Shown: positions 1,958-33,039 of the stretch, piece after piece
Numbering within the stretch: position 1 is the first letter of the stretch
Layout of the letters: the number at the start of each line of letters is the position of its first letter
DNA from: a virus
Strand: one strand, 5' to 3'
IMG/VR virus record: IMGVR_UViG_3300017917_003016
Coordinates: 124,001-188,000 of that record
DNA length: 64,000 bases
Made by a program: the position numbers and the translations under genes
The notes under the pieces: model-generated
What the model was told of the DNA's origin: nothing
The model's input: the letters and a program-made list of their open reading frames with translations, nothing else
Database searches by the model: none

Positions 1958-2045
1958 GGAAGTGCGGCTCAGATGGCGGATGGGCACCGGACTGTAAATT
2001 CGGCACACAGAAACGCAGTAGGTTCGAATCCTACCACTTCCACCA
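1958..2045 (+). tRNA. tRNA-Tyr(GTA)
   Basis: Acceptor GGAAGTG/CACTTCC with A73 and encoded CCA. Anticodon loop CTGTAAA. A long variable region marks class II, as expected for bacterial Tyr. It abuts the giant RNA and is probably cotranscribed with it. Confidence 0.93.
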
Positions 2046-2200
2046 TTCAATGACGACCGGCTAAATCTGCGGAGTGCAGGCCCAGGTTGGGGGTGATACG
2101 CCACTCAAGTTCCAACCCGTCATTTATCAAAAAGGGAGAGCGTTGAGCATGAAACCATGCCTGCTCTTAAACGACAATGACTGCGTCCCTAGAGATTCCC
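2046..2200 (+). other. Structured spacer between tRNA-Tyr and tRNA-Glu
   Basis: No convincing tRNA or gene, though a Phe tRNA was looked for. Two folded elements are visible: one closed by TGACG/CGTCA with internal CTGC/GCAG and GTTGG/CCAAC pairs, and a hairpin AGAGC..GCATG..CATGC..GCTCT near 2136-2168. Bases 2183-2191 (GCGTCCCTA) are perfectly complementary to the 3' end of the following tRNA-Glu. This may be a small RNA or a pre-tRNA leader. Confidence 0.4.
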
Positions 2201-2278
2201 GTCCCTATAGATTACGATTGGTTAGATCATCACCCTTTCAAGGTGAAGAACCGGGATCGTCGCCCGGTAGGGACGCCA
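2201..2278 (+). tRNA. tRNA-Glu(TTC)
   Basis: Acceptor GTCCCTA/TAGGGAC, G73, encoded CCA. Anticodon loop CTTTCAA. T arm CCGGG/CCCGG. Confidence 0.9.
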
Positions 2279-2284
2279 GTTTTA

Positions 2285-2373
2285 GGAGAGTTGCCAGAGT
2301 GGTAATGGAGCGGATTGCTAATCCGTCGTTTGCGAAAGCAGGCGCATTGGTTCGAATCCAATACTCTCCGCCA
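2285..2373 (+). tRNA. tRNA-Ser(GCT)
   Basis: Acceptor GGAGAGT/ACTCTCC, G73, encoded CCA, class II variable arm. Anticodon loop TTGCTAA. Confidence 0.92.
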
Positions 2374-2378
2374 AGTAT

Positions 2379-2455
2379 GGTCTGTTAGAATAGTGGCCTA
2401 ATTCGCCTGCCTGTCACGCAGGAGATCAGGGGTTCAAATCCCCTACAGACCGCCA
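2379..2455 (+). tRNA. tRNA-Asp(GTC)
   Basis: Acceptor GGTCTGT/ACAGACC, G73, encoded CCA. Anticodon loop CTGTCAC. Confidence 0.92.
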
Positions 2456-2457
2456 TT

Positions 2458-2532
2458 TGCCGCGTAGCTCAGAGGAAGAGCAATCGGTTGATAACCGATA
2501 GGTCGACATTTCAAAACTGTCCGTGGCAACCA
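2458..2532 (+). tRNA. tRNA-Ile(GAT)
   Basis: Acceptor TGCCGCG/CGTGGCA, A73, encoded CCA. Anticodon loop TTGATAA. The T stem has one mismatch. Confidence 0.85.
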
Positions 2533-2537
2533 ATTAT

Positions 2538-2611
2538 TGGGGTATGGTGAAATGGTATCACACAGGATTTTGATTCCCGTGTTCTTGGTTCGATTCCAAG
2601 TACCCCTGCCA
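2538..2611 (+). tRNA. tRNA-Gln(TTG)
   Basis: Anticodon loop TTTTGAT, G73, encoded CCA. The first acceptor position is U1 opposite U72, an unpaired variant of the weak U1-A72 pair usual in bacterial Gln tRNAs. One A-C mismatch in the anticodon stem. Confidence 0.85.
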
Positions 2612-2612
2612 A

Positions 2613-2688
2613 GGTAATGTAGCACAGCGGGAAGTGCAGCGTCTTCATATGTCGCAGGTCGTTGGTTCAAATCCAACCATTACCACCA
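2613..2688 (+). tRNA. tRNA-Met(CAT), probable elongator
   Basis: Acceptor GGTAATG/CATTACC, A73, encoded CCA. Anticodon loop TTCATAT; the anticodon stem has one mismatch. One of three CAT tRNAs in the window; assigned elongator Met because the other two look like the initiator (5154) and Ile2 (9608). Confidence 0.8.
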
Positions 2689-2692
2689 AAAT

Positions 2693-2769
2693 ACGCCTGT
2701 AGTTCAGCGGAATAGAACACTGGTCTACGAAACCAGAGGTCGGTGGTTTGAATCCACCCAGGTGTGCCA
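2693..2769 (+). tRNA. tRNA-Arg(ACG)
   Basis: Acceptor ACGCCTG/CAGGTGT, G73, encoded CCA. Anticodon loop CTACGAA. A34 would normally be deaminated to inosine by TadA. Its last base begins a 22-base palindrome. Confidence 0.88.
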
Positions 2770-2835
2770 AATTTACTGATCAGTAAATTTACAGTTAAAA
2801 CTAACTGAATTAGTAAAATTATTACTGATCAGTAA
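2769..2835. repeat. Two copies of a TTACTGATCAGTAA palindrome
   Basis: A perfect 22-base palindrome (2769-2790) and a second copy with a 14-base perfect core (2822-2835) share TTACTGATCAGTAA and lie about 50 bases apart between tRNA-Arg and tRNA-His. They could be a paired operator for a dimeric repressor or RNA hairpins that guide processing. Confidence 0.6.
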
Positions 2836-2842
2836 ATTTTAT

Positions 2843-2917
2843 GGTGTCTGTAGTGTAGCGGCAACACTCAAGATTGTGGATCTTGCATCATGAGTTCGAA
2901 CCTCATCGGGCACCCCA
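2843..2917 (+). tRNA. tRNA-His(GTG)
   Basis: The eight-pair acceptor stem, with the extra G at -1 opposite C73 characteristic of His, is GGTGTCTG/CGGGCACC, followed by CCA. Anticodon loop TTGTGGA. Confidence 0.92.
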
Positions 2918-2918
2918 C

Positions 2919-2947
2919 TTGACAATTGGTCAGTTTACAGTTATAAT
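2919..2947 (+). promoter_or_regulatory. Sigma-70 promoter, perfect consensus
   Basis: TTGACA at 2919-2924, 17-base spacer, TATAAT at 2942-2947, right after tRNA-His and 24 bases before the phosphoesterase start. Confidence 0.85.
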
Positions 2948-2970
2948 TATGAAAATTTAAAGGAGGCAAC

Positions 2971-3528
2971 ATGCCAGCAACATTTTTGGTCAGCGACACG
3001 CATTTTGGTCACGCTGGCGTCTGCCGATTCCTGCGTGAGGATGGTACTAAACTCAGACCATTTGACACGCCCGAAGACATGGACGAATTCATGATCAAGG
3101 CGTGGAACGACCGTGTTAAGCCTAACGACAAGGTCTACCATCTCGGTGATGTGGTCATTAACCGCAAGTCTCTCAAAACTCTTGCTCGCCTTAACGGTGA
3201 CAAAGTGCTTATCAAGGGTAACCACGATATCTTTGCACTAGAGGATTATACCACCTACTTTAGAGATATTCGCGGTTATCACGTCATGAATGGCATGATC
3301 CTTAGTCATATCCCTGTGCATGCAGACAGTCTTGCACGTTTTGGTACCAACATTCACGGACATCTGCACGCCAATCGTGTCATGAAAGATGGAGTTATTG
3401 ATCCAAGATACCACTGTGTTTGTGTAGAGCACACCGACTATGCTCCTATACTGTTTGAGGATGTAATCAAACGTATTCTAGAAGAAGGCGGCAGTGTGGG
3501 TTTTAGGAACGGCAACGGTCCACTTTAA
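2971..3528 (+). CDS. Calcineurin-like metallophosphoesterase
   Basis: 185 aa with the metal-binding motifs of the family in order: DTHFGH near the N-terminus, GDVV around residue 54, GNHD around residue 82, then SHIPVH and HGHLH. Such small proteins hydrolyse phosphomonoesters or phosphodiesters using two metal ions; phage members include nucleotide and RNA phosphoesterases, and the substrate here is unknown. AAAGGAGG precedes the ATG, and a perfect sigma-70-type promoter lies just upstream, so this is probably an early gene. A convergent gene starts its 3' end three bases before the stop codon ends. Confidence 0.85.
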   Translation: MPATFLVSDTHFGHAGVCRFLREDGTKLRPFDTPEDMDEFMIKAWNDRVKPNDKVYHLGDVVINRKSLKTLARLNGDKVLIKGNHDIFALEDYTTYFRDIRGYHVMNGMILSHIPVHADSLARFGTNIHGHLHANRVMKDGVIDPRYHCVCVEHTDYAPILFEDVIKRILEEGGSVGFRNGNGPL

Positions 3529-4541
3529 TAGGCCAGCAGATTTCTTGCTGGCCTAATCCAATCAGTCATTAGAAAATGCTGCTTGTTGTGATCTAATACA
3601 GGTTGCAACCTTTCAATTATTTGTCTGGGGTTCTGTTGACAAAGATATTCAACCTGCTGCCACGCTAGTTTGAATCGTGTTTGATCATTGGCATGGTCAT
3701 CATAACTTTCATCGATTACACTACTAAAAGTTTGAAAACCTAATTTTTTTAGATTTCTTAGATAGTGTTGACCTGCAAACACAACAAAAGGTCTTAATGC
3801 TACTATAGGTTTTGCAACTTTTTCTGTAAAATGACTGTATTCGTTTGTGGATATGGTCTCGGCAACAACGGAGTAGTAACTGTTGTTATAGATATCAGTG
3901 GGTATCATAGCACTGACGCGAGCGTCCTCATCGTCAATTTTAAATTGATTAGAAGTAAGAGGTACTCCAAGTTTTGAAGGATGATATTTTGAATCCCATA
4001 GACCATTTTCTATGCGGTATTTAAAATAAGAAAAAATAATTTGATCTTTATACGGACTAGTCTGATATAACTTTTCAATAAAATCTCTATGAGTTTTTGT
4101 TGAGCCCAAAAGACAATCAAACATTTTTGGTCTATCATAGGTATGATTTAGTTGCCCTAGTAATTTTTTAGCCCAGTTAGCAGTAGCATAGTAATTAACA
4201 TGATCAATGAACCAACAGACTAAAGGTAAACATCTAGCATGATTTAGATTAAAATTGAGAATTGTATCACTAAAAAAAATTATTTTTTCGTAGTCATTGG
4301 CTTTGATAAAATCAGCATAGTTAGTTGATTCGTTATGCACTGCTTCATTGTTATAGACAAAAAGTCTGGTACACCTGTTCAACAAATGGTTGATGATCTC
4401 AGACTGCTGATCATAGTCATAGGTATAAAAATCGATGGCAATCGTATCGGCTGATCTATCAAATTTGATAAAATCATCAGGTTCAATAAGATGATGTTCT
4501 TGTTGATTAAACTGCCAAAAAAAGGGTCCGGAATAAATCAT
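3525..4541 (-). CDS. Glycosyltransferase-like protein, paralogue of 15860-17023
   Basis: 338 aa. The C-terminal third shares a clear block with the product at 15860-17023: EK-KPIV--PF, then YL--L---GF--FSS-IDESYDD, then a D/N-Q-R segment and a His-Asn tail. That arrangement (a Glu-Lys followed by a conserved Pro-Phe and a GF-F-IDESYD stretch) is typical of C-terminal donor-binding regions in GT10/exostosin-like glycosyltransferases, so transfer of a sugar to a glycan is likely but unproven. No signal peptide. It is the only minus-strand gene in this part and converges on the phosphoesterase. Confidence 0.5.
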   Translation of the reverse strand: MIYSGPFFWQFNQQEHHLIEPDDFIKFDRSADTIAIDFYTYDYDQQSEIINHLLNRCTRLFVYNNEAVHNESTNYADFIKANDYEKIIFFSDTILNFNLNHARCLPLVCWFIDHVNYYATANWAKKLLGQLNHTYDRPKMFDCLLGSTKTHRDFIEKLYQTSPYKDQIIFSYFKYRIENGLWDSKYHPSKLGVPLTSNQFKIDDEDARVSAMIPTDIYNNSYYSVVAETISTNEYSHFTEKVAKPIVALRPFVVFAGQHYLRNLKKLGFQTFSSVIDESYDDHANDQTRFKLAWQQVEYLCQQNPRQIIERLQPVLDHNKQHFLMTDWIRPARNLLAY

Positions 4542-4578
4542 ACAGAATATTTAGCAAGTGTCAAGAGTCTCTATCCCT

Positions 4579-4586
4579 TATAAATA
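4579..4586 (+). promoter_or_regulatory. T4-type late promoter abutting a start codon
   Basis: TATAAATA ends six bases before the ATG at 4593, so the predicted transcript would be leaderless or nearly so; no Shine-Dalgarno sequence is visible. Confidence 0.5.
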
Positions 4587-4592
4587 TTTGAA

Positions 4593-5099
4593 ATGAAAAG
4601 ATACTTTTGGATCATAGCATTTTTATTGTCTCCTGCTAGAGCATCTGATACTATTGATTTTGATAAATTATCGCGAGAGACATTTGATCTATATCCTATA
4701 AAAGTAGAATATAGTCAACCTCCTTTAGAACGCATTTCTCCACAGGAACTACATCAATGGATCTGCGGAGACAAATGTCCTGAAGGCATTGAAGTCAAAG
4801 GAGTGTACTTCCAAGGAACAATTTATTTGATTGATAATATTGTTACCTGGGACGACTGGGAAAAAAGTCTTTATGTACATGAGGTCGTGCACTATATACA
4901 GGATTTGATAGGCAAAACTACCAGATCTGGTAGAGAACCATGTACAAATCATCTGGCATTAGAACTAGAAGCCTATAGCCTACAAAGTCAATGGCTCAGG
5001 CAACACGGAAAATTTATCAAACATTCAGACATAGTTGATCTAGCCAGGGCAAGTGCAGCCAGAGGCTGCAAAAAAACAGTTGACACTGTAAAAAAGTGA
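4593..5099 (+). CDS. Secreted HExxH metallopeptidase-like protein
   Basis: 168 aa. An N-terminal signal peptide (charged MKR, hydrophobic stretch, PARAS cleavage region) predicts export. HEVVH around residues 90-94 is a zincin motif, and ELEAYSLQSQWL downstream supplies a candidate third ligand Glu. Cysteines in the CGDKCPEG and EPC segments suggest an oxidised, periplasmic protein. It is a paralogue of the minus-strand protein at 7553-8047, sharing the HExVH, the -E-(E/H)AY--QS-(W/F)L-(Q/K)HG segment and the overall size. Possible roles are envelope degradation or proteolysis in the periplasm. The promoter for the tRNA cluster that follows overlaps its 3' end. Confidence 0.7.
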   Translation: MKRYFWIIAFLLSPARASDTIDFDKLSRETFDLYPIKVEYSQPPLERISPQELHQWICGDKCPEGIEVKGVYFQGTIYLIDNIVTWDDWEKSLYVHEVVHYIQDLIGKTTRSGREPCTNHLALELEAYSLQSQWLRQHGKFIKHSDIVDLARASAARGCKKTVDTVKK

Positions 5100-5108
5100 C
5101 TATATAAT
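5080..5108 (+). promoter_or_regulatory. Sigma-70 promoter of second tRNA cluster, perfect consensus
   Basis: TTGACA at 5080-5085, 17-base spacer, TATAAT at 5103-5108. The -35 box is inside the end of the preceding gene. It should drive the tRNAs from 5154 onward. Confidence 0.85.
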
Positions 5109-5153
5109 AGATGTATTGGTTAGACACGTTCATTAAAAATTTAGCAGTTCAGT

Positions 5154-5228
5154 CGCGGGATAGTGAAATGGCATCACGGTGGTCTCATAAGCCACAGTTC
5201 CTAGTTCGAATCTAGGTCTCCGCAACCA
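5154..5228 (+). tRNA. tRNA-Met(CAT), initiator-like
   Basis: Starts CGCGGGA and ends CCGCAACCA like bacterial initiator tRNA, giving the diagnostic C1-A72 mismatch. Anticodon loop CTCATAA. It lacks the full run of three G-C pairs in the anticodon stem (last pair is T-G), and the 3' acceptor strand seems to carry one extra base, so the fold is slightly irregular. Confidence 0.75.
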
Positions 5229-5234
5229 GATTTT

Positions 5235-5309
5235 GCCGCGTTAGCACAGTGGTAGTGCAACGGTTTTGTAAACCGTAGGTCGTCTGTTCGAATCAGACAC
5301 GCGGCACCA
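5235..5309 (+). tRNA. tRNA-Thr(TGT)
   Basis: Acceptor GCCGCGT/ACGCGGC, A73, encoded CCA. Anticodon loop TTTGTAA. Confidence 0.92.
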
Positions 5310-5316
5310 GATTATT

Positions 5317-5399
5317 GCCCGGGTGGTGGAATTGGTAGACACGCTGGTCTTAGAAGCCAGTGCTTCGGCGTAAGTGTTCGAGTCTCTTCTTGGGCACCA
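5317..5399 (+). tRNA. tRNA-Leu(TAG)
   Basis: Acceptor GCCCGGG pairs with the end CTTGGGC (one or two non-Watson-Crick positions), A73, encoded CCA, class II arm. Anticodon loop CTTAGAA. Confidence 0.9.
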
Positions 5400-5406
5400 A
5401 AGTTTT

Positions 5407-5480
5407 GCGGCGTTCGTAAAATGGTATTACCTTAGCCTTCCAAGCTAAAGTCGCGAGTTCGATTCTCGCACGCCGCTCCA
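5407..5480 (+). tRNA. tRNA-Gly(TCC)
   Basis: Acceptor GCGGCGT/ACGCCGC, T73, encoded CCA. Anticodon loop CTTCCAA. Confidence 0.92.
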
Positions 5481-5484
5481 AGTT

Positions 5485-5576
5485 TCACATAAGTCAGATG
5501 AAGATGATGCCGTTGAAAGCGTGTGAAGATAGTGGACGATAAAACTTTAATTATAGCAGTACACTGGCTTATGTGA
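5485..5576 (+). ncRNA. Hairpin-closed small RNA candidate between tRNAs
   Basis: TCACATAAGTCAG (5485-5497) pairs over 13 positions, one being G-U, with CTGGCTTATGTGA (5564-5576). The pair encloses about 65 bases and abuts tRNA-Ala. No ORF or tRNA fold inside. It could be a small RNA released when the flanking tRNAs are processed. Confidence 0.45.
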
Positions 5577-5579
5577 TTT

Positions 5580-5655
5580 GGGGGTGTAGCTCAGTTGGGA
5601 GAGCGCCAGCTTTGCAAGCTGGATGTCGCAAGTTCGATCCTTGTCACCTCCACCA
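5580..5655 (+). tRNA. tRNA-Ala(TGC)
   Basis: Acceptor GGGGGTG/CACCTCC, A73, encoded CCA. Anticodon loop TTTGCAA. Confidence 0.93.
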
Positions 5656-5662
5656 AATTTCT

Positions 5663-5738
5663 GCGGGCGTAACTCAGTTGGGAGAGTGCAACCTTGCCAA
5701 GGTTGATGTCGAGAGTTCGAACCTCTTCGCCCGCTCCA
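5663..5738 (+). tRNA. tRNA-Gly(GCC)
   Basis: Acceptor GCGGGCG/CGCCCGC, T73, encoded CCA. Anticodon loop TTGCCAA. Confidence 0.93.
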
Positions 5739-5745
5739 TGTTTTT

Positions 5746-5821
5746 GGAAGGTTAGCTCAGTTGGTAGAGCATCGCCCTTACAAGGCGAGGGTCACTGGTT
5801 CGAGCCCAGTACCTTCCACCA
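5746..5821 (+). tRNA. tRNA-Val(TAC)
   Basis: Acceptor GGAAGGT/ACCTTCC, A73, encoded CCA. Anticodon loop CTTACAA. Confidence 0.93.
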
Positions 5822-6040
5822 AACACTACCGTGTCCTGACGGTTTATCAGGAGGTTGTGAGTATAGGTTGGCCAAACCTTCCAGAAACTCTCAGGTGCTC
5901 TGTCCACCTTAAGGCTACAGCGTAGACGTAGGCCCTGCGATAACGGCCCGCAGGTGTGATGTTCCTCTAGAGTGAACATACGGACAGGGTAACAACTCAG
6001 TTAGGGGCCATGGTGGTGCAGGTAGCCTAACACTGACACT
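5822..6040 (+). ncRNA. Structured RNA candidate (about 210 nt) inside the tRNA array
   Basis: This GC-richer stretch fills the whole gap between tRNA-Val and tRNA-Asn. Helices seen: outer GTGTC 5831-5835/GACAC 6035-6039, 5835-5839/5847-5851, 5865-5869/5875-5879, CTAC/GTAG near 5915-5925, CTGTCC 5900-5905/GGACAG 5982-5987 enclosing CTGCG 5935-5939/CGCAG 5949-5953 and ATGTTC 5959-5964/GAACAT 5974-5979. The pattern is a multibranched RNA. The 5' helix and the CCTGA hairpin share base 5835, so the exact closing pairs are uncertain. Overlapping minus-strand ORFs run into tRNA genes and are not credible. No known family recognised. Confidence 0.6.
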
Positions 6041-6117
6041 TCCCCGATAGCTCAGTTGGTAGTAGCAATGGACTGTTAATCCATGTGTCCCTGGTTCGAG
6101 CCCAGGTCGGGGAGCCA
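6041..6117 (+). tRNA. tRNA-Asn(GTT)
   Basis: Acceptor TCCCCGA/TCGGGGA, G73, encoded CCA. Anticodon loop CTGTTAA. Confidence 0.92.
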
Positions 6118-6122
6118 TTATT

Positions 6123-6199
6123 CGGACATTAGCGCAGCCCGGTAGCGCATCTGCTTTGGGAGCAGAGGGTCGTAGGTTCGAATCCTACATGTCCGACCA
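6123..6199 (+). tRNA. tRNA-Pro(TGG)
   Basis: Acceptor CGGACAT/ATGTCCG, A73, encoded CCA. Anticodon loop TTTGGGA. Confidence 0.92.
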
Positions 6200-6224
6200 T
6201 TTTTAATTTAACTAAAGGTAATGT

Positions 6225-6695
6225 ATGCAAAAACTTGACTTTGACGAAGTGCGGACGTTTATTCAGCAGCAAAGCCCAGAAACCAAAATCTACATTGGTG
6301 GCGATAGTCGTAGATTTCGTAAGGACAATACCTGGCATGCTGAATACACCCTTGCTGTTGTAGTTCATATCGATGGCAAGCATGGCTGCAAGATTTTTGG
6401 TGAGTCTTGCATTGAGCGTGATTTTGATCAACGTCGAGACCGCCCTAGCATGCGTCTTATGAATGAAGTCTACAAGATTAGTGAACTTTACCTTAAGTTA
6501 CACGAAGTTTTAGAAGATCGTGATGTTGAAGTACACCTAGATATTAACCCCAATGAAATGTACGGCAGTAGTTGTGTGGTACAACAGGCAGTGGGTTATA
6601 TTCGTGGTGTATGTAATGTTGTACCAATGGTTAAGCCTCGTGCGTTTGCTGCCAGTTACGCCGCAGACAGACTCAAGGAGGTATTGGCAGCATAA
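6225..6695 (+). CDS. YkuK-type RNase H-like protein
   Basis: 156 aa resembling the YkuK/DUF458 family, which has an RNase H-like fold. IYIGGDSRR near residue 23 carries the first acidic strand, a long charged middle follows, and VEVHLDINPNEMYGSS near residue 105 gives the second acidic strand, followed by VQQAVGYIRG. Family members are predicted nucleases or RNA-binding proteins without a settled substrate. It is embedded between tRNA-Pro and tRNA-Lys, so a role in RNA processing would be natural, but that is inference. Confidence 0.7.
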   Translation: MQKLDFDEVRTFIQQQSPETKIYIGGDSRRFRKDNTWHAEYTLAVVVHIDGKHGCKIFGESCIERDFDQRRDRPSMRLMNEVYKISELYLKLHEVLEDRDVEVHLDINPNEMYGSSCVVQQAVGYIRGVCNVVPMVKPRAFAASYAADRLKEVLAA

Positions 6696-6703
6696 AAGTT
6701 TAC

Positions 6704-6779
6704 GGGACGGTAGCTCAGTTGGTAGAGCAGCGGACTTTTAATCCGTTGGTCGCGAGTTCGAACCTCGCTCGTCCTACCA
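6704..6779 (+). tRNA. tRNA-Lys(TTT)
   Basis: Acceptor GGGACGG/TCGTCCT (G-U at both ends), A73, encoded CCA. Anticodon loop CTTTTAA. Confidence 0.92.
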
Positions 6780-6799
6780 ATATTAAAGGAGATCACAAA

Positions 6800-6982
6800 A
6801 TGAAAACGGTGGTTTTTAAAAATCGAAGATCAAATGAAAAATTTGTCTGCGACAACGTCCGTGATGTCCGTGTGATTGAAGGAGTTGAATATCTACAGGT
6901 ACATCGTCCGGACAATCCTAGAAACTTTTTGATGCGTAAAGATGCACTAGAAAGGGTAGAATCATCCCGCTTGCCGCGTTAG
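6800..6982 (+). CDS. Small hypothetical protein (60 aa)
   Basis: ATG at 6800 with AAAGGAG ten bases upstream; longer upstream frames run through tRNA-Lys and are ignored. The product is basic and short, with a beta-rich look (KTVVFKN, REVRVIEGVEYLQV-like strands) and no family recognised. Its last 21 bases overlap the 3' end of the convergent AdoMet-decarboxylase-like gene. Confidence 0.65.
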   Translation: MKTVVFKNRRSNEKFVCDNVRDVRVIEGVEYLQVHRPDNPRNFLMRKDALERVESSRLPR

Positions 6983-7324
6983 GAAGTTGGCTCGCATGCT
7001 CTTTGGTTTGAAATATTCACGCACAACTTCTTTGACAATATCTATGCTGAATTCTTTGCAACTAAAAACGTCTAGATATAGATCGCCGGTTGAATCTATA
7101 AAGTGTGCAACAATACTGGATGTAACTATGATCTGCACAGCAGTGAATCCTGCTTTGTCGGGTTGATCTCCTGCTGTGTATTCTATCCAAGGTGTGCCAA
7201 TTGGCTCCATGTCAATTCTTTGCACTAGTTCTTCGATAAAGTTTTTAACATTCCATTTTTCCATGATCAGTGCACGGTTGCAGTCATGACAGTCTAATGT
7301 TAGATGATAACCCCAAAAACTCAT
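6962..7324 (-). CDS. speD: S-adenosylmethionine decarboxylase-like protein (SpeD family)
   Basis: 120 aa. The N-terminus WGYHLTLDCHDCN and the block TSSIVAHFIDSTGDLYLDVFSCK align without gaps with the bacterial SpeD/SpeH core TESHISIH..LDVFxCG. The self-cleaving Ser that becomes the pyruvoyl cofactor is present; the preceding Glu and the following His are both Ser here, which may change processing. SpeD enzymes supply the aminopropyl donor for spermidine, and polyamines neutralise phage DNA charge. An AAGGAG site precedes the start, and an AATAAATA octamer lies 40 bases upstream on the same strand. Family assignment is good; activity is uncertain because of the changed residues. Confidence 0.7.
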   Translation of the reverse strand: MSFWGYHLTLDCHDCNRALIMEKWNVKNFIEELVQRIDMEPIGTPWIEYTAGDQPDKAGFTAVQIIVTSSIVAHFIDSTGDLYLDVFSCKEFSIDIVKEVVREYFKPKSMRANFLTRQAG

Positions 7325-7363
7325 TGATGTCTCCTTGACATAGAATTCGTAAGAAAGTATAGT

Positions 7364-7371
7364 TATTTATT
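7364..7371 (-). promoter_or_regulatory. T4-type late promoter variant (AATAAATA)
   Basis: On the minus strand, 40 bases upstream of the AdoMet-decarboxylase-like gene. Confidence 0.4.
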
Positions 7372-7395
7372 GTGCAGAGCAAAAAGTTAGATATA

Positions 7396-7469
7396 CCCGG
7401 TGTAGTTTAATGGTAGAACCGCAGCCTCCAAATCTGCATGTGGGAGTTCGATTCTCTCCACCGGGCCCA
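7396..7469 (+). tRNA. tRNA-Trp(CCA)
   Basis: Acceptor CCCGGTG/CACCGGG with encoded CCA. Anticodon loop CTCCAAA. Position 73 is C, unlike the usual bacterial G73 for Trp, and the last anticodon-stem pair is mismatched. Confidence 0.82.
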
Positions 7470-7474
7470 TTTAT

Positions 7475-7552
7475 GTAGAGGTGGCAGAGTGGCCCAATGC
7501 AAGGGATTGCAAATCCCTAAAACCGTGAGTTCGAATCTCACCCTCTACTCCA
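7475..7552 (+). tRNA. tRNA-Cys(GCA)
   Basis: Acceptor GTAGAGG/CCTCTAC, T73 (the Cys discriminator), encoded CCA. Anticodon loop TTGCAAA. Confidence 0.92.
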
Positions 7553-8047
7553 TTACCTGCACTGTTCTATTAGATTGGGCACTGCAAACCCTGTACTACC
7601 GTGTTTTTTCAAAAAATTACTCTGTGCGGTATAGGCATGCTGTTCGCTCTTAGCCCAGTGTAGGCAGTCTGGTTCATTTTTAAACAAATTGTTTTTTACC
7701 TGAGCCCAGTGTACTAATTCATGAAATACCACACTGGCAGTGAATAGGTTAATCTGCAGCAATGCTGGACTGATCAGTATCTCACCAGTCTCGTCGTCTG
7801 TGATAGCAGCCACATGACAGTCATGATTGACATCTTTGCAGTAGGCTGCTTCTATGGCCTGCCTGCTGGCTAGATAAACTTTGGGTTGTTCTTTAGGCAA
7901 AGGTAATCTGGTTATTTCAGTTATTTCTGTCATCAAAGGTCTGATCAGATTCTCATACATAATTGGCGGAATTGGAGTCTTAGAAATTTCTTGTGCATGG
8001 CTCCGGGCTGTGACCAGCAGCGCCAGGAGGAATATAATTTTTTTCAT
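7553..8047 (-). CDS. Secreted HExxH metallopeptidase-like protein, second paralogue
   Basis: 164 aa with a clean signal peptide (MKKIIFLLALLVTARSHA). HELVH near residue 104 is a zincin motif, and SEQHAYTAQSNFLKKHG is the downstream helix with a candidate Glu ligand. Cysteines flank the active region. Similar in size, motif order and C-terminal helix to the plus-strand gene at 4593-5099, so the two arose by duplication or separate capture. It sits between tRNA-Cys and tRNA-Arg on the opposite strand to them; the stop codon directly abuts the tRNA-Cys 3' end. Confidence 0.7.
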   Translation of the reverse strand: MKKIIFLLALLVTARSHAQEISKTPIPPIMYENLIRPLMTEITEITRLPLPKEQPKVYLASRQAIEAAYCKDVNHDCHVAAITDDETGEILISPALLQINLFTASVVFHELVHWAQVKNNLFKNEPDCLHWAKSEQHAYTAQSNFLKKHGSTGFAVPNLIEQCR

Positions 8048-8078
8048 TTTAATTCCAAGTATCTACATACTTATGCTA

Positions 8079-8155
8079 GCCCCCGTAGCTCAGTGGACCA
8101 GAGCGGTGCGCTTCGAACGCACGGGTCGGGAGTTCGAATCTCTCCGGGGGCTCCA
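8079..8155 (+). tRNA. tRNA-Arg(TCG)
   Basis: Acceptor GCCCCCG/CGGGGGC, T73, encoded CCA. Anticodon loop CTTCGAA. Confidence 0.9.
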
Positions 8156-8201
8156 AATAAATAACTGTTGACAGCGGTTTAATGTATTTGATTTGATTTT
8201 T

Positions 8202-8209
8202 CATAAATA
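8202..8209 (+). promoter_or_regulatory. T4-type late promoter abutting a start codon
   Basis: CATAAATA ends five bases before the ATG at 8215; a transcript started from it would have essentially no leader. Confidence 0.4.
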
Positions 8210-8214
8210 AAATT

Positions 8215-8850
8215 ATGCATACTTGTTTATACTGTCAAAAAAATTTTACTAACCTGGGTGGTTTGGGGGCGCATCACCCTTATTGTAAATCTAACCCAGA
8301 AAGAAAACAGCGTACAAAATCTCCCAATGCACATCGTAAAAAAGGTTCAATACCCTGGAACAAAGGGTTATCTATAGAAACTGATCAAAGAATAAAACCA
8401 AGATTAGAACTACAAGGTAAAAGATTTGGTGCTTCGTTAAACGGTCACAGTGAAGAGACTAAGAAAAAACTATCAGAAATCGCCAAAGAACGTAAATTAG
8501 GTGGATATGTAAAAGGCTCCGGAAGAGGTAAAAAAGGCTGGTACAAAGGATTTTTTTGCGACAGTAGTTGGGAACTTGCCTATGTAATTTATTGTTTAGA
8601 ACACGGTATAGATATTAAAAGAAATACAGAAATCAGAGAATACATATGGAAAGGGCAAGTTAAAAAATATATTCCTGATTTTAATGTACAAGGTGTAATA
8701 ACTGAAATTAAGGGTTACAAGACAGAACAATGGCTAGCAAAATTAAAAGCAAATATTGATGTAAAAGTCTTGTATGAAAAAGATTTAGAGTATATAATAG
8801 AGTATGTTAGTAGCAAATACGGTAAAGATTTTGTAAAGTTGTACGAGTAA
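8215..8850 (+). CDS. Homing endonuclease: C2H2 finger, NUMOD-like, PD-(D/E)XK
   Basis: 211 aa in three parts. Residues 1-25 form a C2H2-like zinc finger (CLYC...HHPYC). The middle (about 30-105) is basic, with NKG and SEETKKKLSEIAKER typical of NUMOD3-like DNA-binding repeats of homing enzymes. The C-terminus (about 115-211) has SSWELAYVIYCLEH, a Lys/Arg-rich strand, then IPDF and ITEIKGY, which fits a PD-(D/E)XK nuclease core. No Shine-Dalgarno site is visible, and a late-promoter octamer is only five bases upstream. Such free-standing endonucleases move between phages by cutting cognate sites; here it sits between two tRNA genes. Confidence 0.75.
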   Translation: MHTCLYCQKNFTNLGGLGAHHPYCKSNPERKQRTKSPNAHRKKGSIPWNKGLSIETDQRIKPRLELQGKRFGASLNGHSEETKKKLSEIAKERKLGGYVKGSGRGKKGWYKGFFCDSSWELAYVIYCLEHGIDIKRNTEIREYIWKGQVKKYIPDFNVQGVITEIKGYKTEQWLAKLKANIDVKVLYEKDLEYIIEYVSSKYGKDFVKLYE

Positions 8851-8855
8851 TGTTT

Positions 8856-8946
8856 GGAGGGGCAAACCGATTGGTGACGGTACCTGTCTTGAAAACAGTT
8901 GAGCGTTAATAGCGCCTTGGGGGTTCGACTCCGCCTCCCTCCGCCA
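8856..8946 (+). tRNA. tRNA-Ser(TGA)
   Basis: Begins GGAGGGG and ends CCTCCCTCCGCCA, giving a GC-rich acceptor stem, G73 and CCA. Long variable arm. Anticodon loop CTTGAAA. Confidence 0.88.
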
Positions 8947-8961
8947 ATTTTATGAGGCTGT

Positions 8962-9582
8962 ATGATTAAACTGCTAGGAAAACTACCGCGAGAAATTTGG
9001 GTAGCCTGCTCAGGTGGTGTCGATAGTCTTGCTGCTGTAGATTTTCTCAAAAACAATCATCGCGTTAGTGTGGTTTTTGTGCATCATGGCACAGAAGCCA
9101 GCGACCAAGGCATGATCAAAGTCTGCGAATATGCAGACACACACGCACTGCCGGTAGTGGTAAAATACATCGATACCCATCGGCCGCGCCAGCAAAGTCA
9201 GGAAGAATACTGGCGTCGAGAACGCTATGAGTTTTTTGATGAATTGCACAACGAATGGCCGTTGGTCACTGCACATCATCTAGATGACTGTGTGGAAACT
9301 TATGTATGGAGTATGTGTCATGGCCGCGGCAAGGTAATTCCCCATCGTCGTGGTCGCGTGATTAGGCCGTTTCTTCTTAACTCTAAACAGGAATTGATTG
9401 ATTGGGCTGAACTGCATGGCCTGTCCTGGCATGATGATGCCAGCAATCACGATATTAAGTATACACGCAATCTTGTACGACACGAAGTACTTCCACAGGT
9501 TCTACGGGTCAACCCCGGCATCGCACAAGTTGTGCGCAGGATTGTTAAAGATAATTTTGATCTTGACAGGCATCAATACTGA
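8962..9582 (+). CDS. tilS: tRNA(Ile)-lysidine synthase, short form
   Basis: 206 aa. The PP-loop ATPase signature SGGVDS is at about residues 17-22, followed by HHGTEA, HHLDDCVETYVWSMCHGRG (the TilS counterpart of HHxDDQxET) and RNLVRHEVLP. TilS converts C34 of the CAT-anticodon Ile tRNA to lysidine so that it reads AUA instead of AUG. Bacterial enzymes are usually over 300 aa; this one is the N-terminal catalytic domain only. A tRNA with anticodon CAT starts 25 bases after the stop, so enzyme and probable substrate are neighbours. Confidence 0.88.
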   Translation: MIKLLGKLPREIWVACSGGVDSLAAVDFLKNNHRVSVVFVHHGTEASDQGMIKVCEYADTHALPVVVKYIDTHRPRQQSQEEYWRRERYEFFDELHNEWPLVTAHHLDDCVETYVWSMCHGRGKVIPHRRGRVIRPFLLNSKQELIDWAELHGLSWHDDASNHDIKYTRNLVRHEVLPQVLRVNPGIAQVVRRIVKDNFDLDRHQY

Positions 9583-9607
9583 ATATATACTATGTAATGA
9601 AAGTTAC

Positions 9608-9684
<77 letters not shown>

Positions 9685-9704
9685 ATATATTACTAGGTTT
9701 AATC

Positions 9705-9914
9705 ATGATAGAAAAAGAGTTGATTGATCTAATGCTAAGTATTAAGCATGAATTAATTGCTATCAGAACTGATCTAACATTGATTAATCATGATGTAATT
9801 AAAATTAACGAACGTATAGATACGTTGACAACTTTGGCTATGCAACCTCAAGAAAGTATTGGAATCGCTCCAAACACACCGCATCCAAGTTATCTTCCTC
9901 CAGAGGTAATGTAG
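9705..9914 (+). CDS. Small helical protein (69 aa)
   Basis: The ATG at 9705 is preferred because longer frames run into the tRNA. Residues 1-45 form a heptad-like amphipathic helix (IEKELIDLMLSIKHELIAIR), ending in a Pro-rich tail. The pattern LINHDVIKINERIDTL resembles the C-terminal helices of the small membrane proteins at 14330 and 15488. No enzyme motif. Weak ribosome binding site. Confidence 0.6.
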   Translation: MIEKELIDLMLSIKHELIAIRTDLTLINHDVIKINERIDTLTTLAMQPQESIGIAPNTPHPSYLPPEVM

Positions 9915-9947
9915 TCAAAACTTAAATTATTTTATAAGGAAACTAAA

Positions 9948-10277
9948 ATGTTAACAATGCTTTCTGTAGTAGTGGTACTGCTGGTAGCAGGGTATATTAT
10001 TAATACACGACTGCAAAAGTCGCAGACTAAGACCAGCCAACCTACTCCCACTGAACCCGTCAAAGTTACTGTCAGTGAAGAAGTTGTCACAGGGTTGACT
10101 GATCAAAAGATTGATGAAGTTGCTGCGGTAGTCGAGGGTGTTGAAGCAGTAGTGCCAGAAACTAAGGTAGAGGTTGTAGTCGAAACTACTGCCAAGAAGC
10201 CTGCAGCACGTAAGTCTTCAGCACGTAAGCCCGCTGCTAAGAAGGCACCTGCTAAGAAGCCTGCTGCTAAGAAGTAA
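9948..10277 (+). CDS. Membrane-anchored protein with Lys/Ala/Pro-rich tail
   Basis: 109 aa. One N-terminal transmembrane helix (LSVVVVLLVAGYIIN), an acidic Val/Glu middle, and a basic C-terminus of KPAAK/KKAPAKK repeats like the tails of histone H1-like and AlgP-like proteins, which bind nucleic acid. It could tether DNA or RNA to the inner membrane; that is inference. AAGGA lies before the start. Confidence 0.65.
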   Translation: MLTMLSVVVVLLVAGYIINTRLQKSQTKTSQPTPTEPVKVTVSEEVVTGLTDQKIDEVAAVVEGVEAVVPETKVEVVVETTAKKPAARKSSARKPAAKKAPAKKPAAKK

Positions 10278-10286
10278 AGTTTAATT

Positions 10287-10374
10287 GCCCGGGTGGTGAA
10301 ATAGGTAGACACAACGGACTTAAAATCCGTCGCCCTAAACAGGCGTACCGGTTCGATTCCGGTCCCGGGCACCA
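10287..10374 (+). tRNA. tRNA-Leu(TAA)
   Basis: Acceptor GCCCGGG/CCCGGGC, A73, encoded CCA, class II variable arm. Anticodon loop CTTAAAA. Confidence 0.93.
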
Positions 10375-10382
10375 ACAATACT

Positions 10383-10586
10383 ATGGACGTTAATCAACTT
10401 ATTAATCGTGTAAAAAATCTCCAGTACTGGGAAGTGACAATACCAGTACCACCGTTGGTAAAGTTTTCTGGGCGTGTGCCTTTTACTGTAAAAATAGTTG
10501 ATGACCGTGCTGTATGTAAGGTTTTAGCAGTTGACATAGTTGAAGCAGAACGCAGGGTTTTAGAATACTTTAATTCACAAGTTTAA
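10383..10586 (+). CDS. Small hypothetical protein (67 aa)
   Basis: The ATG lies nine bases after tRNA-Leu and the stop just before the next tRNA. The product has an N-terminal helix, an aromatic/proline strand region (YWEVTIPVPPLVKF) and a C-terminal helix (VEAERRVLEYFNS). No family recognised and no clear ribosome binding site. Confidence 0.55.
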   Translation: MDVNQLINRVKNLQYWEVTIPVPPLVKFSGRVPFTVKIVDDRAVCKVLAVDIVEAERRVLEYFNSQV

Positions 10587-10587
10587 A

Positions 10588-10662
10588 CTGCTCGTAGCCT
10601 AATGGAAAGGCAACACTCTTCTAAAGTGTCTTATGGGGGTTCGAGTCCCTCCGGGCAGGCCA
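10588..10662 (+). tRNA. tRNA-Arg(TCT)
   Basis: Acceptor CTGCTCG/CGGGCAG, G73, encoded CCA. Anticodon loop CTTCTAA. Confidence 0.9.
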
Positions 10663-10668
10663 AGTTAA

Positions 10669-10759
10669 GGAGAGTTGGCCGAGCGGTCGATGGCACCGGT
10701 CTACTAAACCGGCATACAGTTAACCTGTATCCAGGGTTCGAATCCCTGACTCTCCGCCA
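10669..10759 (+). tRNA. tRNA-Ser(ACT), unusual anticodon
   Basis: Acceptor GGAGAGT/ACTCTCC is identical to that of tRNA-Ser(GCT) at 2285; G73, encoded CCA, and a class II arm (ATACAG/CTGTAT). Anticodon stem CCGGT/ACCGG with loop CTACTAA gives anticodon ACT. Bacteria normally read AGY with GCT; A34 here is rare. Confidence 0.88.
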
Positions 10760-23947: not shown

Positions 23948-24538
23948 ATGCCTAATCTAGTACCAATGGTTCTTGAACGCACCAGTCAAGGTGAACGCAG
24001 TTATGATTTGTATTCAAGACTGCTCAAAGACCGCATTGTGATTCTTGACACTGACGTCAACGAACACTCAGCAAGTCTTATTGTTGCTCAATTGCTGTTC
24101 CTTGAAGCAGAAGATGCTGAAAAAGATATTTTGTTCTATATCAACAGTCCAGGGGGTATTATCACTGCTGGTATGAGCATTTATGATACCATGCAGTTTA
24201 TTCGTCCTCAGGTCAGCACCATTGTAATGGGACAGGCCTGCTCAATGGGCAGTTTTCTTGCACAAGCAGGGGCCCCAGGCAAACGTATGATGCTGCCCAA
24301 TGCTCGACACATGATTCACCAACCTAGCGGTGGTGCACGTGGCATGGCTTCAGACATTGAAATTTCCTACAAGGAAATCATGCACTGGAAGCAACGTCTA
24401 ACAGAACTTTATGTAGAGCACAATACCTCAGGTAAAACCTATGAAGATTTTGAGCGGGACATGGATCGTGACACTTTTATGAGTGCACAGGAATCTCTGG
24501 AGTATGGCCTCTGTGACGAAATTATCACTAAACGATAA
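23948..24538 (+). CDS. clpP: ATP-dependent Clp protease proteolytic subunit ClpP
   Basis: 196 aa, a typical ClpP length. The catalytic Ser lies in [10 protein letters not shown], the His in [10 protein letters not shown] and the Asp in [24 protein letters not shown] and [12 protein letters not shown] are family hallmarks. ClpP forms a barrel protease that works with ClpX/ClpA on tagged proteins, including those carrying tmRNA tags, and this phage encodes its own tmRNA 4 kb away. No Clp ATPase is in the window, so a host unfoldase would be needed. Confidence 0.95.
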
Positions 24539-28813: not shown

Positions 28814-28842
28814 TTGACATACATTGCCATTGCTGTTATAAT
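28814..28842 (+). promoter_or_regulatory. Sigma-70 promoter of the tmRNA, perfect consensus
   Basis: TTGACA at 28814-28819, 17-base spacer, TATAAT at 28837-28842. Expected transcript start is near 28849, just upstream of the tmRNA acceptor piece. It lies inside a 28-codon ORF (28778-28864) which I therefore do not annotate. Confidence 0.85.
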
Positions 28843-28848
28843 TATTGA

Positions 28849-28936
28849 ACTATTTTTGAAGTAAATAAGAGTATTGCTGTATGAAGTTGATGGAAAGGTG
28901 TTCTGGACGCGGGTTCGACTCCCGCCGACTCCACCA
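28849..28936 (+). ncRNA. ssrA: tmRNA acceptor piece (3' half) of a permuted ssrA gene
   Basis: Ends with GGACGCGGGTTCGACTCCCG followed by CCGACTCCACCA, which closely matches the 3' end of bacterial tmRNA (T arm GCGGG/CCCGC, then acceptor strand CGACTCC, A73, CCA at 28934-28936). It lies upstream of the coding piece, so the gene is circularly permuted. The acceptor strand pairs with GGGGTCG at 29131-29137. The 5' limit is inferred from the promoter. Confidence 0.88.
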
Positions 28937-28948
28937 AAAATGCACTGT

Positions 28949-29161
28949 ATGACTGAAGACCAAAGACGTTACGCCTATGAATTGTTTTACCTAGTAAAAG
29001 GCCATGTCAAGTATTTTGACGATGCTGACCTAGAGGCCATAGTCAAAGATTATACTCGGCGTCTGTGGTACAATGAAGAAGCACATTTGTACCGTGAAGG
29101 GTTTGAAGAAGCATATCGTGTGTTTTCGCTGGGGTCGTACAGGTTTCGACAGGGCAAATGA
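28949..29161 (+). CDS. Protein encoded in the tmRNA intervening segment (70 aa)
   Basis: An open frame from ATG 28949 (or 28940) runs through the whole intervening segment between the tmRNA pieces, and its stop lies 31 bases into the coding piece. The product is acidic, helical and aromatic-rich (TEDQRRYAYELFYLVKGHVK, then DADLEAIVKDYTRRLWYNEE). The ATG lies only 4-13 bases after the CCA end, with no Shine-Dalgarno site. Translation would have to precede tmRNA processing or use a leaderless cleaved segment. Composition resembles real phage proteins; no family recognised. Confidence 0.5.
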   Translation: MTEDQRRYAYELFYLVKGHVKYFDDADLEAIVKDYTRRLWYNEEAHLYREGFEEAYRVFSLGSYRFRQGK

Positions 29162-29350
29162 GTACGGATATGGACAGCACGGTAGGCGAAGACCGTAAAT
29201 CTAGCAAAACTTATAGATGCCAACACATCTAAATTTGGTACTGCAAAAGTATCTATGGGCCGCGGCTTCCGCTTCGGTACTCGTAGTGCTGAGGCAGTAG
29301 CAGCCTAAACTCTGCAACCACGGGGTTGGTTAGCCTTGTTACCCAATTAA
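29131..29350 (+). ncRNA. ssrA: tmRNA coding piece (5' half) of a permuted ssrA gene
   Basis: GGGGTCG (29131-29137) pairs with CGACTCC of the acceptor piece, with one G-U, forming the tRNA-like acceptor stem; TTTCGACAGGG follows as in tmRNAs. The likely resume codon is GCC at 29219, after AAAACTTATAGAT, giving a tag that begins Ala-Asn-Thr and ends Glu-Ala-Val-Ala-Ala before TAA at 29306. The tag would be 29 residues. ACTCTGCAACC after the stop and the strong terminator at 29354 mark the end. Alphaproteobacterial two-piece tmRNAs also end AVAA. Confidence 0.9.
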
Positions 29351-29353
29351 CCA

Positions 29354-29377
29354 AAGCCCACTTCGGTGGGCTTTTTT
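29354..29377 (+). terminator. Rho-independent terminator of tmRNA
   Basis: AAGCCCAC, TTCG tetraloop, GTGGGCTT, then T-run. Confidence 0.92.
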
Positions 29378-29394
29378 ATCTTGATTATAGACAA

Positions 29395-29402
29395 AATAAA
29401 TA
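29395..29402 (+). promoter_or_regulatory. T4-type late promoter (AATAAATA)
   Basis: Located 20 bases before the start at 29422. Confidence 0.45.
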
Positions 29403-31040: not shown

Positions 31041-31105
31041 AGCAGTTTCGTGCCTAGATCAGGGCGGAACGAAAATTTTATTTGCTTACTAAAAGGAGTA
31101 AAACA

Positions 31106-33039
<1,934 letters not shown>

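Follow-up and report, generated by a model that had tools for sequence, protein, structure and literature searches.

A conserved small gene in the spacer of a circularly permuted phage tmRNA, with sequence evidence for a recurrent gene slot

Circularly permuted transfer-messenger RNAs (tmRNAs) derive from a precursor that tRNA-processing enzymes cut into two pieces (PMC11915505, PMC9004378); according to the 2025 tmRNA database paper, the intervening sequences are absent from mature tmRNA, one of them containing a tRNA-Ala gene and another a repeat (PMC11915505). The locus described here raises the question of whether such an intervening sequence can itself be a gene, and what its excision would then mean for the message. 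The locus lies in a 64,000-nucleotide (nt) stretch of viral DNA, hereafter the window, which comprises bases 124001-188000 of the 201,732-base record IMGVR_UViG_3300017917_003016. A first-pass annotation, made from the sequence alone, had proposed there a permuted tmRNA whose 194-base spacer forms one continuous open reading frame (ORF) of 70 codons, with its stop inside the coding piece. Both proposals hold, and the parts concerned are the following.

28875-28936, + strand: tmRNA 3' (acceptor) piece, from the RF04321 and beta_tmRNA alignments and ARAGORN
28937-29130, + strand: spacer (intervening segment), 194 nt, one frame open throughout
28949-29161, + strand: spacer gene, 70 amino acids (73 from the ATG at 28940), 39 viral relatives, conserved core F-x3-KG ... 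RLWYNEEA-x5-GF
29131-29308, + strand: tmRNA 5' (coding) piece to the end of the tag frame, from RF04321

A conserved gene within the tmRNA

The Rfam model RF04321 (tmRNA_permuted) matches positions 28875-29308 with 119.2 bits (cut-off 47, E 1.1e-22), the beta_tmRNA model likewise exceeds its own cut-off, and ARAGORN, independently of Rfam, reports a tmRNA* at 28844-29399 with a 29-residue tag. The 3' piece contains a T arm (28909-28925, with a 5-bp T stem), the acceptor strand CGACTCC, A73 and an encoded CCA ending at 28936, and the acceptor strand pairs with GGGGTCG of the 5' half, which begins at 29131. Both tRNA-like halves and the tag frame are intact.

The frame in the spacer is open from an ATG at 28940 or 28949 (4 or 13 bases past the CCA) through a TGA at 29159-29161, which sits 31 nt into the 5' half, the first 31 nt of the coding piece doubling as the final codons and stop codon of this frame. 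The start was assigned to the ATG at 28949 because the relatives at loci L003, L004, L005 and L006 have the matching methionine as their first residue; the position of the ATG at 28940 is a GTG in L003. The N-termini read MTEDQ in the window, MDEQ in L003, MDQN in L004 and MTEE in L005. The ORF is longer than those of dinucleotide shuffles (p 0.003), and viral contigs searched with the 73-residue frame yielded 39 loci that encode relatives; an alignment of 19 members has 12 invariant columns around RLWYNEEA and GF. Between the window and L003, whose homologous ORF also occupies a permuted-tmRNA spacer of 194 nt, the proportions of synonymous and nonsynonymous differences are 0.56 (pS) and 0.16 (pN), giving a ratio of nonsynonymous to synonymous substitution (dN/dS) of 0.17, and differences at codon positions 1, 2 and 3 number 9, 7 and 22. 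On these comparative data the spacer ORF is a genuine protein gene under purifying selection. The Rfam, homologue and dN/dS analyses that the first-pass annotation had called for all favour a permuted tmRNA with a coding spacer, and the pattern that it had set against its own proposal, a spacer of variable length with no conservation of protein, is not what L003 displays.

The predicted structure of the spacer protein consists of three helices, at moderate confidence (pLDDT 75). Pfam and PHROG searches gave no nuclease-like match for it, and a tblastn search of isolated phages with several family members returned no match. An identity as the T4-type late-transcription coactivator gp33 was considered and ruled out: the gp33 of phage Melnitz, which lies beside the tmRNA of that phage, differs in sequence, and L005 carries a separate gp33-like ORF (3327-3575) besides its family member.

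Three further features complete the unit; the promoter and terminator that had been proposed to bracket it are both present.

28814-28842, + strand: sigma-70 type promoter TTGACA-17-TATAAT, a 12/12 match with TG before the -10 element (consensus match only)
29219-29308, + strand: tag reading frame ANTSKFGTAKVSMGRGFRFGTRSAEAVAA and its stop, from ARAGORN
29353-29377, + strand: intrinsic terminator past the coding piece, with a 9-bp stem (29353-29374) and a U-rich tail

The tag frame terminates in AEAVAA, the small hydrophobic residues expected of a tmRNA tag. At 29 residues the tag (ANTSKFGTAKVSMGRGFRFGTRSAEAVAA) is basic and unusually long, the commonest tag length in bacteria being 10 residues. 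No SmpB was found in the same virus record, so the tmRNA would rely on that of the host. By sequence, ClpP-like (23948-24538), GroES-like (31082-31396) and GroEL-like (31417-33039) genes lie around the tmRNA, and the same phage has an array of 27 tRNAs at 1958-10759.

Relatives of the gene and the contents of other spacers

The gene family also occurs inside the spacer at L081 and, as a more distant member, at L177. A permuted-tmRNA spacer is preceded at 58-127 bp, on the same strand, by this gene in L004, L007, L014, L015, L037 and L053, which puts the gene directly before or overlapping the tmRNA 3' half; at other family loci it is 1.6 kb upstream, or adjoins a ThyX-like gene in a region that gave no tmRNA match. 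Since the gene adjoins the tmRNA in other phages, the window and L003 carry, as judged from these arrangements, a neighbouring gene that has been taken into the spacer. A second family, C, is likewise found in both places, in the spacer at L089, L116 and L047 and just upstream of the tmRNA in Melnitz and L137, whose own spacers hold another ORF. The L089 spacer gene is 73.5% identical in DNA to Melnitz gene 85, which terminates 3 bases short of the annotated Melnitz tmRNA.

Some members of the window's family have unusual starts or surroundings. The in-spacer relative at L081:421-619 lacks ATG, GTG and TTG where its start would be expected, the candidate start codon there being ATA. In a 215-kb relative (L009:5001-5114) the tmRNA is preceded by what looks like a decayed copy, which lacks an ATG and is truncated past RLWYNEEA. 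A copy unconnected with a tmRNA begins 5 nt past a tRNA-like T arm and CCA (GGTTCGAATCCAGGCTGGGCACCA; L005:1283-1312); its start thus directly follows a possible tRNA 3' processing site, at which ARAGORN calls no tRNA.

The recurrence of coding spacers was assessed by scanning viral contigs for places where an encoded CTCCACCA is followed, across a spacer of set length, by a 5' tRNA-like half (TCGACWGG), with matches filtered by acceptor and T-stem pairing; the survey figures, here and below, are counts among the matches listed. At least 127 distinct viral permuted-tmRNA spacers of at least 140 nt were recovered, and a single forward ORF spans at least 70% of the spacer in 109 of them. Rfam confirmed a permuted tmRNA at 15 of the 15 spacer loci tested. 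The ORFs form many unrelated clusters, at least 15 of which contain two or more distinct spacers, and the families represented include transmembrane (TM) microproteins, DUF6356 (above the Pfam cut-off in two separate clusters) and PGDYG (above it in L192), with HNH endonucleases in longer spacers. Of the 59 spacers in the set before refiltering, 40 held an ORF longer than dinucleotide shuffles (p<0.05), and the nine other spacer families tested gave dN/dS values of 0.03-0.43 wherever these were computable. Scans for longer spacers added 26 true loci, mostly with one ORF of about 80-115 codons filling the spacer; in L361:1945-2303 and L371:1214-1572 the 359-nt spacer is taken up by an HNH endonuclease gene (PHROG E 1.5e-22 and 7.9e-24, respectively), and L362, L365, L370, L373 and L374 are near-identical to L361 and share its HNH spacer gene. 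As a control, the same pattern in bacterial genomes matched at least 118 stretches, where only L284, among the matches listed, is a credible permuted tmRNA, and its long spacer is not filled by an ORF. The window locus had been treated initially as a lone oddity, a view that gives way here: many phages use the permuted-tmRNA spacer as a slot for differing small genes, a recurrence documented by spacer sequences of unrelated families.

Among individual loci, L043:4079-4220 of the Methylophilales phage Melnitz (MZ577097.1) contains an unannotated spacer ORF of family D (MFKWLSKTRLVVITRDYF...) whose stop lies beyond the spacer. The largest spacer family (L056, L054, L062, L085, L094 and others; 159-192 nt) seemingly has two overlapping frames, a short one after AAAGGAGA (..GDSDEEPSS..) and, starting within it, a TM microprotein (..FKAYIVWSICADITLLAGLIYLVFF). 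The HNH genes suggest possible homing-type mobility of the tmRNA locus.

Spacer ends, stop position and proposed processing

The two ends of the window spacer are complementary, which places the gene between the strands of a helix that continues the acceptor stem.

28937-28945, + strand: 5' strand of the acceptor-extension helix (AAAATGCAC), 9/9 pairs with 29118-29126
29118-29126, + strand: 3' strand of the acceptor-extension helix (GTGTGTTTT), doubling as coding sequence for part of the C-terminal region of the protein

The minimum-energy fold of the precursor contains this helix, and the L003 helix (AAAGTGTAC/GTGCATTTT) likewise pairs at 9/9 positions; the differences between the two are one-sided (A-U to G-U and similar), not two-sided. 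Across spacers, the first nine positions and the last nine (a stretch that stops four bases short of the 5' half) form 8 or 9 of the nine possible pairs in 64 of the 66 distinct helices among the matches listed, with two-sided changes at every position across families, random cross-pairing giving 6.4 of nine. Many families have a Shine-Dalgarno sequence within or adjoining the 5' helix strand and the stop codon within or adjoining the 3' one. About 69 of 117 ORFs (among the matches listed) have a match of at least 4 bases to AAGGAGGT in the spacer upstream of the start, the window having none.

The frame runs into the tRNA-like domain and reaches its stop 31 nt in for the window, 34 nt for L003 and 13 nt for L081. 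These are three of the 19 ORFs in 127 that end beyond the spacer, a group that also includes the family D ORF of Melnitz and the DUF6356 family of L046, L067 and L078; in the other 108, including the distant relative L177, the stop is within the spacer. Because the window stop is 31 nt inside the 5' half, 5' maturation would strip it and turn the excised spacer into a nonstop mRNA. The same would hold in all 19 cases, as the stop lies past the cut, nonstop messages being the kind of substrate rescued by tmRNA. This qualifies the first-pass suggestion that cleavage at the CCA end yields a nearly leaderless mRNA: the geometry stands, given the ATG at +4 or +13, but the excised RNA would also lack its stop, a point absent from that description and one that alters the effect of excision. 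The stop-less design of the window type could conceivably be regulatory, a suggestion that we make with some reserve.

Taken together, these observations make it probable that the window encodes a permuted-tmRNA transcript that carries a captured phage gene in its spacer and is processed to two pieces, as one case of a general gene slot. One transcript would run from the promoter at 28814 to the terminator at 29353 and span both the permuted tmRNA and the spacer gene, and expression of the gene from this shared transcript is the most likely arrangement. In the folded precursor the acceptor stem would run on into the 9-bp helix, with the gene in the loop; ribonuclease P at 29131 and 3' processing after the CCA at 28936 would then produce the two-piece tmRNA and cut out the spacer. 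The 70-residue protein would be translated from the same transcript, and since a ribosome must read 31 nt into the coding piece to reach the stop, normal completion of the protein would be possible only on the uncleaved precursor, the cleaved spacer being a nonstop message. Whereas the tmRNA, the conserved gene, the helix, the stop position, the recurrence of coding spacers and the relocation of the gene can be read from sequence, co-transcription, cleavage at these points and translation are predicted steps. Several points weigh against this interpretation. The window ORF has no Shine-Dalgarno sequence, and the spacer RNA as a whole does not fold with unusual stability (z -0.86). The spacer protein has no significant match in Pfam, PHROGs, PDB folds or viral folds. 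The case for expression of the gene is built from sequence, and the survey is not a census, as it required the encoded CTCCACCA and TCGACWGG and used spacer lengths that favour ORFs.

Explanations differ mainly in how closely gene and tmRNA would be coupled. Passive packing, in which the gene occupies a loop that is tolerated in a densely packed phage genome and is translated independently of tmRNA processing, with no coupling, deserves almost even weight. The occupation of the slot by many unrelated gene families agrees with it, as do the functioning of the same genes elsewhere in other phages and the tolerance, in principle, of a two-piece tmRNA for any spacer length; it is harder to reconcile with the start of most spacer ORFs about 10-20 nt from the CCA end and, in several families, a Shine-Dalgarno sequence within the strand that pairs with the spacer 3' end (AAAGGAGA/TCTTTTTT), because with such starts and such pairing processing must at least touch translation. 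Taken to its extreme, coupling would amount to a regulated switch in which translating the spacer gene precludes maturing the tmRNA and vice versa, the protein being made only when maturation lags: a ribosome reading to the stop would enter the 5' half and open the acceptor stem, whereas processing would leave a stop-less message whose product would be tagged and destroyed by the same tmRNA. The stops inside the tRNA-like domain of the window, L003 and L081, and the 19 ORFs that end past the spacer, among them that of an isolated phage, speak for such a switch, yet the 108 stops inside the spacer mean that nonstop release is no general requirement, and the functional side of the idea follows from sequence geometry; we regard it as rather doubtful. 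Equally tentative is its wider form, that phages excise small translatable mRNAs from tmRNA precursors by means of tRNA-processing enzymes, the stop-less window type feeding its product to its own tmRNA as feedback.

Two other explanations carry far less weight. Mobile genes might occupy the spacers selfishly, as homing endonuclease genes do in the group I introns of standard tmRNA genes, and the HNH genes in the 359-nt spacers of L361, its near-identical loci and L371 fit that picture; most spacer proteins are not endonucleases, however, nothing nuclease-like matches the window protein, and in other phages its relatives sit stably beside the tmRNA, which leaves selfish insertion improbable here. 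For the window, a group I intron with a homing endonuclease was rejected, the T loop being uninterrupted and the ORF giving no nuclease match. That the frame is open by chance in a noncoding spacer, or that the tmRNA is a pseudogene, can be practically dismissed: open frames of 60-70 codons do arise by chance, and antisense frames are long too in some spacers, but the homologues, dN/dS, codon-position pattern and known domains already refute chance as an alternative to coding, and the intact tRNA-like halves and tag frame oppose a pseudogene. The reading retained is thus that of a captured gene in a processed permuted-tmRNA transcript.

Significance and relation to known tmRNA systems

Permuted-tmRNA spacers are now treated as waste, and phage annotation follows suit; even the Melnitz spacer ORF is unannotated. 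If the slot regularly houses small genes, a set of unannotated phage microproteins would become visible, comprising membrane proteins, DUF6356, PGDYG, HNH nucleases and many unknowns. The locus would also offer a natural case of a single transcript cleaved to give a structured RNA plus a message and, in the window type, one in which making the rescue RNA strips the neighbouring message of its stop codon. That one gene can sit either upstream of the tmRNA or in its spacer offers a direct way into how circularly permuted RNA genes rearrange, and Melnitz could serve as a cultivable model for spacer ORFs.

In the open-access literature (subscription papers and most preprints lying outside this scope) no report of protein-coding permuted-tmRNA spacers was found. 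Homing endonuclease genes are reported only in group I intron forms of tmRNA, in 36 of 883 (PMC11915505), and the tmRNA text of the paper on Melnitz, an OM43 phage, deals with a glutamine riboswitch and describes no spacer ORF (PMC9004378). We propose the protein-coding spacer as a class, in which the window would be placed by its filled spacer and the signature of purifying selection (dN/dS 0.17, 39 homologues).

The window unit resembles the permuted two-piece tmRNAs (RF04321; alpha, beta and cyano), a known system, in the order of its halves, its tRNA-like domain, tag frame and encoded CCA, and in an intervening sequence that would be absent from the mature RNA; it is unlike those described in that its intervening sequence is a conserved protein gene, where theirs are discarded spacers (PMC11915505). 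With the group I intron tmRNAs that carry homing endonucleases it shares a protein gene nested in the intervening sequence of a tmRNA gene, but in that form a self-splicing intron interrupts the T loop of a standard tmRNA, whereas here there is no intron, excision is predicted to be of tRNA type and the genes are mostly non-nuclease. The two-piece tmRNA of Melnitz is likewise a permuted phage tmRNA with a spacer ORF (L043), unannotated in its record, from which the window differs in encoding a different spacer protein.
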